This document shows, in pieces, positions 1,473 to 49,080 of a stretch of DNA of 63,330 bases. Each line of letters opens with the position of its first letter. Positions within the stretch are counted from its first letter, which is position 1. The translations under genes were made by a program, and so were the position numbers. A model generated the notes under the pieces. That model was given only the letters and a program-made list of their open reading frames with translations. It was not told the origin of the DNA and made no database searches. Origin of the DNA: Thermodesulfobacteriota bacterium (lineage in GTDB: Bacteria > Desulfobacterota > UBA8473); NCBI GenBank assembly GCA_040757775.1, contig JBFLWQ010000019.1:1-63330 (forward strand), written 5' to 3'.

Positions 1473-2549
1473 TCAAATGTTAATAGTATTTTTTTCAGGA
1501 ATTATTTCATCTAAAACATTTTTTAAGGAATCCCAAATTAGATCATAAATAATTCCATATGATTTTTGAGATGAACCATACCTGCTAGCACCATTTTCTG
1601 AGTTATCTTTATGCCAGAAATCGCACTCAAAATAATCCGATACATTTTCATGAGAAAATAACTTTAGAAACATATCTCCAGTAATATTTTTTGCAGCCCA
1701 AAGTGTAGGTAATAACTTTGCAAATACTTTATTTAGTACAAAAATACCTGGAGTTTTTAATATTAAATAATCTTTTGGAGTCACAAACGCTTCTGGACAA
1801 AGGGTTTTTATCGCACTCCACATATTCATCAGTCCTTTGGCAGCTTGTTTTTCATCTCTTAAATAGCTTTTGTAAACATCCACTAAAGGTTTTAAAGAAC
1901 TAGTAGCAGAAACTTGATTTAATGGCATTGACCCTTTTTCACCGGGGCGTTTTATTAAATGATATAAAGGGGATTCGGGGGTATCAGCTAGATAATCTAT
2001 AATTCTTACAGCATCGCTTTTCCACATATCAATTGGGAGGTCTTGAGTTGCAATATTTTCTCTACCCTCTTTCTGCTCAAGTATCAAAAAAATACGTTCT
2101 GCTAAATCAGTTTTTACTCCTTTTTGCATTTTGTTAATGATTAAAAACTGTTTTGCTTCAAACTCTTTTTCAGAATTCATTAAAGCTATGGGGATATCGA
2201 TTTCCCGAATCATAGGAAACTCATCCGCTAACTCTTTCATTCCCTCAAACCTATGTTGGCCATCAACAATCCACCAATTTAAATTATCAGGGACATTTAA
2301 ATACCCGTCTTCTTCTGAGATGTTATTTTCACGAATATTAACAAATAAATTAACTGGAGAAGTACCGCCTTTTCTCATGAAGTGTCCAAATTTCCTTGCT
2401 CTATTTTTTTGTGCTTCTCTTTGGTACCCTTCAGGATTTTTAGGTGATTGCTGATCGACTATAGCTTTACCTAAGATTTCTTTAAATTTAACTTTACACA
2501 ACCAAAATTTTGTTCCTCCCTGATCAAATGCTAAACATGGAATTTTCAT
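1473..2549 (-). CDS. DGQHR-domain (DndB/ParB-like) protein
   Basis: 358-residue protein with the signature WWIVDGQHRFEGM near residue 90-105, followed by IPIALM and FLIINKMQKGVKTDL, as in the DGQHR family (DndB and relatives), which shares a ParB/Srx-like fold. DndB represses or tunes phosphorothioate modification clusters; other orphan members are found in defence islands with no known role. No dndCDE genes are in the window, so this is an orphan. A strong site (AGGAGG) precedes the ATG at 2549. The gene is AT-rich and stands alone between an Fe-S protein gene and trmFO, which suggests transfer. Five 14-bp-spaced GATCT motifs lie just upstream and may be its operator. Confidence 0.75.
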   Translation of the reverse strand: MKIPCLAFDQGGTKFWLCKVKFKEILGKAIVDQQSPKNPEGYQREAQKNRARKFGHFMRKGGTSPVNLFVNIRENNISEEDGYLNVPDNLNWWIVDGQHRFEGMKELADEFPMIREIDIPIALMNSEKEFEAKQFLIINKMQKGVKTDLAERIFLILEQKEGRENIATQDLPIDMWKSDAVRIIDYLADTPESPLYHLIKRPGEKGSMPLNQVSATSSLKPLVDVYKSYLRDEKQAAKGLMNMWSAIKTLCPEAFVTPKDYLILKTPGIFVLNKVFAKLLPTLWAAKNITGDMFLKLFSHENVSDYFECDFWHKDNSENGASRYGSSQKSYGIIYDLIWDSLKNVLDEIIPEKNTINI

Positions 2550-2604
2550 TTCCTACCTCCTAAAAGTTATTTAGCTACAATGTAGTTTAAATAATTATAA
2601 GTTT

Positions 2605-2674
2605 ACAAGATCTAAATGTCAAGATCTTTTTTAATAGATCTTAAATATTTGATCTTTGTTTTAAGATCTATAAA
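2605..2674. repeat. Five 14-bp iterons with GATCT core
   Basis: GATC begins at 2609, 2623, 2637, 2651 and 2665, i.e. five copies at an exact 14-bp period, each followed by T and mostly preceded by A-rich sequence (AAGATCT in units 1, 2 and 5). The remaining bases of each unit are AT-rich and variable. The array lies 60-125 bp upstream of the DGQHR gene (minus strand) and 210-280 bp upstream of trmFO (plus strand). Likely a binding array for a repeated or oligomeric protein, for example an autoregulatory operator; a methylation-sensitive switch is possible because every core is a Dam-type site. Confidence 0.7.
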
Positions 2675-2767
2675 AATAGCCGCTATTTTGCTTAACGTAT
2701 TGCCAATCCTATCTATGAAATTCAACTATTATTGTTGAAACAATACCGAAAATGGTATTTGGCAATG

Positions 2768-9839: not shown

Positions 9840-9918
9840 TTTGCTATCCCTTTGGTCATCCGGCTAATTGTACTTTTCAGGCAACCCTTTAATTCGTTTT
9901 TGCTCTGTTAGGATATCT

Positions 9919-9967
9919 AAGTTCGAAGTCTAACAGAATAAGGGAAACGGGTCAAATCTTTTCAGGT
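9919..9967 (-). promoter_or_regulatory. Promoter-like element, copy 2 (MFS)
   Basis: Reverse-oriented copy of the 49-bp element at 2768-2816. Read on the minus strand it has TTGACC, 17 bases, then TAGACT, and ends 80 bp before the MFS start, almost the same geometry as for trmFO. About 42 of 49 positions agree by my count, with the differences concentrated in the spacer. The remainder of 9840-10204 holds a G/C-rich imperfect hairpin near 10045-10077 and the kor promoter. Confidence 0.5.
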
Positions 9968-48947: not shown

Positions 48948-49006
48948 AGGGATAGTGTCGGATGTCCGCTGCCGGTACACCGTTTCATAAATGCATATGC
49001 AATACT

Positions 49007-49080
49007 GTCATTTCGGGCACTTCGCTACCTGTCATTTCGAGCCCTTCATCTGTCATTCCGAACGAAGTGAGGAATCTTGT
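49007..49080. repeat. Degenerate GTCATTTCG/GTCATTCC repeats
   Basis: GTCATT occurs three times (49007, 49031, 49052) in tandem-like spacing, with the partial palindrome ATTCCGAACGAAGTGAGGAAT at the end. This belongs to the dispersed GTCATTCC family also seen at 5288 and 50303. The region 48948-49237 holds no gene I recognise; near its right end is GTTAGGT (49199-49205), matching the GTTRRRY cassette-junction consensus. Confidence 0.6.

Follow-up and report, generated by a model that had tools for sequence, protein, structure and literature searches.

In the genome of a Thermodesulfobacteriota bacterium, five GATCT motifs at a strict 14-bp period lie across the promoter of a gene for a DGQHR-domain protein, and this array is very probably a multi-site operator for that gene. 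We consider it moderately probable that the operator is autoregulated, with the DGQHR protein itself as binder and repressor. Such control would resemble that which the DNA-sulfur regulator DndB exerts on its own gene. In what follows, the window is the whole stretch of DNA that was analysed, 63,330 nucleotides in length.

Five GATCT motifs in strict register

GATC starts at positions 2609, 2623, 2637, 2651 and 2665 of the window, so that the earlier sequence-only reading, which had described five GATCT motifs at an identical 14-bp spacing, was exact at all five positions. The GATCT core is present in every site, extended to AGATCT in four of them and to TGATCT in the fourth in order. The units read, in order, CAAGATCTAAATGT, CAAGATCTTTTTTA, ATAGATCTTAAATA, TTTGATCTTTGTTT and TAAGATCTATAAAA. 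The features of the locus are as follows, with site centres counted from a putative transcription start near 2587.

1473..2549, minus strand: gene for the DGQHR-domain protein, 358 aa, from the TIGR03187 and PF14072 profiles
2556..2561, minus strand: ribosome-binding site AGGAGG, read from the sequence
2594..2622, minus strand: sigma-70 promoter TTGACA-N17-TATAAT, 12/12 consensus, reading into the DGQHR gene
2606..2675, no strand: five-unit array, 14 bp per unit, a GATCT core in each, spacers mutually unrelated
2608..2613: site 1, AGATCT, centre about -23.5, within the -35/-10 spacer
2622..2627: site 2, AGATCT, centre about -37.5, starting on the outermost base of the -35 box
2636..2641: site 3, AGATCT, centre about -51.5, upstream of -35
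2650..2655: site 4, TGATCT, centre about -65.5, upstream of -35
2664..2669: site 5, AGATCT, centre about -79.5, upstream of -35

Chance can be set aside as the source of the array, in agreement with the earlier reading. Three GATC motifs at 14-bp spacing gave three overlapping matches in the window and none in 100 dinucleotide shuffles of it. Chains were also sought for 4-mers made up of three or more different letters, at every period from 7 to 30. The GATC array, with five copies, was the longest in the window, and chains in shuffled sequence stopped at three copies or fewer, whether the whole window (40 shuffles) or the intergenic region (1000 shuffles) was randomised. GATC is scarce in the window (157 occurrences versus 273 expected); among the markedly under-represented 4-mers CTAG stands at 0.42, GGCC at 0.46 and GATC at 0.59 of expectation. 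Four GATC motifs in a row at 14 bp are found nowhere else in the 3.1-Mb genome, and with one mismatch tolerated only two further matches appear, both weak and of three sites. That the cores are kept while the spacers are random suggests binding sites under selection. The term iterons, used in the earlier reading, found no support in the sense of replication repeats, and a search for an RNA family at the array returned none.

Two other structured stretches were noted in the window. Between the array and trmFO, positions 2699-2766 hold a branched hairpin-forming stretch (z -2.4) that is single-copy in the genome and whose right part alone is shared with the same-genus genome G004. A 24-bp tandem repeat of 2.5 copies lies at 49005-49061.

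A consensus promoter beneath the array

The promoter, which the earlier reading had missed, is the sole 12/12 sigma-70 match in the window, where 0.04 would be expected, and one of 22 in the genome. On the minus strand it is followed by the AGGAGG ribosome-binding site and then by the start codon of the DGQHR gene, an ATG at 2549. The neighbours of the gene are trmFO and a gene for an iron-sulfur protein; trmFO, on the other side of the array, has weak promoter candidates of its own at 2770-2808, apart from the array. The placement of sites 1 to 5 relative to the promoter is operator geometry: with site 1 inside the promoter, between its -35 and -10 elements, and site 2 directly against the -35 box, a bound protein would exclude RNA polymerase.

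The DGQHR protein and its predicted fold

The earlier assignment of the nearest gene to the DGQHR family is borne out by two curated profiles, TIGR03187 for the DGQHR domain (87.1 bits against a cut-off of 58.85, E 1.7e-24) and PF14072 for the DndB superfamily (41.7 bits against 29.1, E 1e-10). The family motifs QR, DGQHR and FxxxN are intact, at Q43-R44, D96-R100, F135 and N139, and these residues are common, almost without exception, to 25 aligned proteins. The curated model does not class the protein as a DndB: TIGR03233, the DndB equivalog with a cut-off of 328 bits, gave no match even at E 10 and gave 458 bits for a true DndB, and the profile similarity to DndB is confined to the N-terminal half. 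With DpdB and DGQHR_dnd_1 the protein has the DGQHR domain in common, although the similarity is weak; it scores 37.3 bits against a cut-off of 300 with the DpdB model NF041060 and falls far below the cut-off of the curated DGQHR_dnd_1 model, and no dpd or dnd cluster adjoins the gene.

An AlphaFold model built on the 25-sequence alignment is confident (mean pLDDT 89, against 34 for a prediction without an alignment). Its best matches among solved structures are ParB, Noc and KorB, which places the predicted fold in the ParB/Srx (ParB-CTPase) class. Foldseek gave E 3.5e-4 against ParB, and the VIA Z scores were 9.2 for Noc, 8.8 for ParB, 7.7 for KorB (best chain) and 7.0 for sulfiredoxin; one KorB alignment, for example, covers 186 residues at an rmsd of 3.8 with Z 7.5. 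Several of the structural alignments span residues 7-17 to 278-286, past the nucleotide-binding domain and into the helical part. The helical part is the seat of the DNA-binding domain in ParB, Noc and KorB proteins, and we infer from the predicted model that the corresponding part of the DGQHR protein may bind DNA.

Repeated motifs at DndB promoters

A precedent is given by DndB, the nearest relative that has been characterised: in Salmonella enterica it binds two TACGN10CGTA motifs at its own promoter and represses it (PMC4507180), and a DndB-like protein with a ParB-type fold has been found to bind ATP and GTP (PMC12704722). We compared promoters by a test of 6-mer copy number in the 120 bp before the start codon, with 300 shuffles and hence a floor of p=0.003. 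Multi-copy 6-mers were found upstream of 8 of 16 DndB genes at p<=0.1 and of 4 at p<=0.01, bearing in mind that the 16 genes are mutually related and that overlapping words inflate the count for the Pseudomonas promoter L200. The corresponding counts were 2/30 and 0/30 for control genes of the window and 2/35 and 0/35 for other DGQHR genes. The DGQHR gene of the window reached the floor of the test (p=0.003). By these counts, it shares a promoter habit with DndB and not with DGQHR genes at large.

Inspected by eye, dndB promoters carry copies of TTACGTAA in E. coli (L188), Pseudoalteromonas (L191) and Priestia (L193) and runs of TACGTACG in Pseudomonas (L200), while ACTTCC copies lie upstream of dndB in L194 and L202 (alphaproteobacterial and Chloroflexota plasmid). 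Repeats of TTACGTAA or TACGTACG thus occur in dndB promoters of both Gammaproteobacteria and Bacillota. Judged from the sequences, the published TACGN10CGTA may represent copies of the 8-bp TTACGTAA palindrome at variable spacing. The operator-like array of the DGQHR gene, for its part, suggests that operator sequences differ from one family member to another, with the arrangement of repeats at the own promoter retained. Two further ideas were set aside. A family rule equating the 14-bp period with the N10 spacing failed on the distances between ACGT cores (9 and 13 in Pseudoalteromonas, 31 and 12 in E. coli), and an inverted-repeat statistic proved unspecific, scoring in 2 of 6 control promoters. 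Plasmid DndB genes for which no dndC is annotated directly downstream were also encountered (L196, L197, L198, L199, L200 and L201).

The locus described here resembles that of Salmonella DndB in having a DGQHR superfamily gene with several short palindromic motifs at its own promoter and a ParB-type fold, here predicted. The distance between the TACGN10CGTA half-sites is 14 bp, equal to the array period, possibly by coincidence. The two differ in the core, which is GATC here and ACGT in DndB operators, and in the spacing, with five sites in strict register here and about three irregularly placed ACGT cores in the other DndB promoters inspected. They differ also in gene content: of the features of a DndB-type autorepressed operon, the promoter of the gene shows the repeated short motif, whereas dndCDE are absent downstream, the best DndC match in the genome scoring 23 bits against a cut-off of 290.

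An apparently genome-specific unit of gene and array

In the same-genus genomes G004 and G003, the region upstream of trmFO is homologous to the window only from 2753 and 2884, respectively, and neither the array nor the DGQHR gene is present there, with the proviso that the G004 contig stops 141 bases upstream of the shared part and so tests the array region, not the whole gene. With trmFO-side homology beginning only at these points, gene and array behave as one, and from the sequence comparison they look like a unit that this genome alone has at the locus. Within that unit, the DGQHR protein is the sole encoded protein adjoining the array. Further members of the genus have more distant DGQHR genes elsewhere in the genome. 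Separately, the 54 bp at 9914-9967 of the window are 94% identical to G004 DNA just upstream of trmFO, by sequence probably a small dispersed repeat.

The earlier reading had proposed looking for the same array upstream of homologous DGQHR genes, and it was found in none of 37 such regions, from relatives about 14-28% identical. The nearest relative, in G091, is 28% identical over its whole length, and its promoter has neither a 14-bp array nor a significant repeat (p about 0.1). Viral contigs, plasmids, phages and a sampling of about 400 genomes from the phylum yielded no homologue with more than about 30% identity, so that the comparison rests on distant relatives. Scans of viral sequences for the array gave tandem repeats or weak chance matches. 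Most DGQHR genes of the phylum are without promoter repeats, and many DGQHR genes at large follow, or are fused to, a nuclease gene.

Other explanations for the array

The operator could serve a different, host-encoded regulator of the DGQHR gene, either a repressor or an activator working through the upstream sites, which we regard as possible though on the unlikely side. The geometry itself does not point to one binder, and sites 3-5, at -52 to -80, could suit an activator. A 12/12 promoter needs no activator, however, and the uniqueness of the array in the genome argues against a global host regulator, leaving one with a single target of this kind. Array and gene are, moreover, both missing at this place in the same-genus relatives.

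A parS-like centromere or clamp-loading site, on which the ParB-fold DGQHR protein would load and then spread or slide, with gene regulation secondary, is decidedly improbable. The solved folds nearest to the predicted one are those of ParB, Noc and KorB, and KorB is both a sliding clamp and a repressor (PMC11790492), but no ParA or replication gene is adjacent, and the array is placed exactly on the gene's own promoter. KorB of plasmid RK2 is instructive as a repressor among the nearest solved folds, with a ParB fold and a DNA-binding domain; its operator OB is a single 16-bp site from which it can act at a distance and with KorA as partner (PMC11790492), in contrast to the five short palindromes at a 14-bp period on the core promoter here, where no KorA-like gene was noticed adjoining.

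That the array is what is left of a 14-bp minisatellite, without any part in regulation, is highly improbable. GATCT-bearing tandem repeats of 14 or 7 bp are common across bacteria: when 84,980 genomes were scanned for three GATCT motifs in 14-bp register, at least 102 stretches came up, almost all of them tandem repeats, and no diverged array stood among the matches listed. Among those bacterial repeats listed, however, the spacers are 50-100% identical, nearly all at 70% or more and mostly above 80%, whereas the four spacers of the array agree at 26/60 positions, which does not exceed the 0.46 that their composition predicts. Spacers no more alike than random AT-rich DNA indicate that the array is not a decayed tandem repeat; decay would have struck the cores too, and all five are intact. 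Tandem Repeats Finder at a score of 30, which looks for whole units that are alike, did not report the array.

A switch based on GATC methylation or phosphorothioation is scarcely credible: GATC is a Dam site and, in haloarchaea, a phosphorothioate context (PMC6459918), but neither a DndC nor a D12 (Dam-class) methylase passes the curated cut-off in the genome, and a dimeric operator alone accounts for a core that is palindromic. The best PF02086 match in the genome (21.6 bits, below the cut-off of 22) is an N6_N4 methylase with no specificity assigned, and since such an enzyme is present, methylation at the array sites could still occur. This methylase carries a TSPPY motif and is encoded at G000:C11 (L204, 2800-4651, minus strand), and a 232-aa orphan beside it may be its restriction enzyme. 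A restriction system on AGATCT formed by this pair was considered, and neither gene could be assigned to a specificity.

A model of autoregulation and its meaning

The most economical choice of binder is the protein that the gene encodes. Of the autoregulated or modification-sensing switch envisaged in the sequence-only reading, the second half found no support in the DndC and methylase searches, and the first gained from the 12/12 promoter, the predicted ParB/KorB fold and the DndB precedent (PMC4507180). Counting against autoregulation, no other DGQHR gene in the data has such a 14-bp promoter array, the DndB motif TACGN10CGTA has another core, and the protein is not a DndB by model.

In the autoregulatory model, each 8-bp near-palindrome of the AAGATCTT type would be occupied by the dimer of a DNA-binding protein, with the DGQHR protein as the likeliest candidate. 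The 14-bp register, about 1.3 helical turns, would set adjacent dimers side by side, where they could bind cooperatively. Dimers covering about -20 to -85 would block RNA polymerase and silence an intrinsically strong promoter, so that the DGQHR product would be kept low and the gene would fire upon titration or release of the protein, the latter possibly driven by a nucleotide switch like that of other ParB-fold proteins. In an extended form that we hold to be improbable, the solitary ParB-fold DGQHR protein would be nucleotide-switched and helically stacked on the array and would respond to a signal in the form of DNA or a nucleotide, such as foreign or modified DNA that titrates it away, as a one-gene sensor-switch outside the known dnd and dpd systems.

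Many DGQHR genes lie outside dnd clusters, and their function is not known. For such a gene, a clearly delimited operator at its promoter would offer a direct handle, with sites, promoter and candidate binder all in view, and the DNA recognition and any nucleotide dependence of the DGQHR family would thereby be open to a joint gel-shift and reporter experiment.
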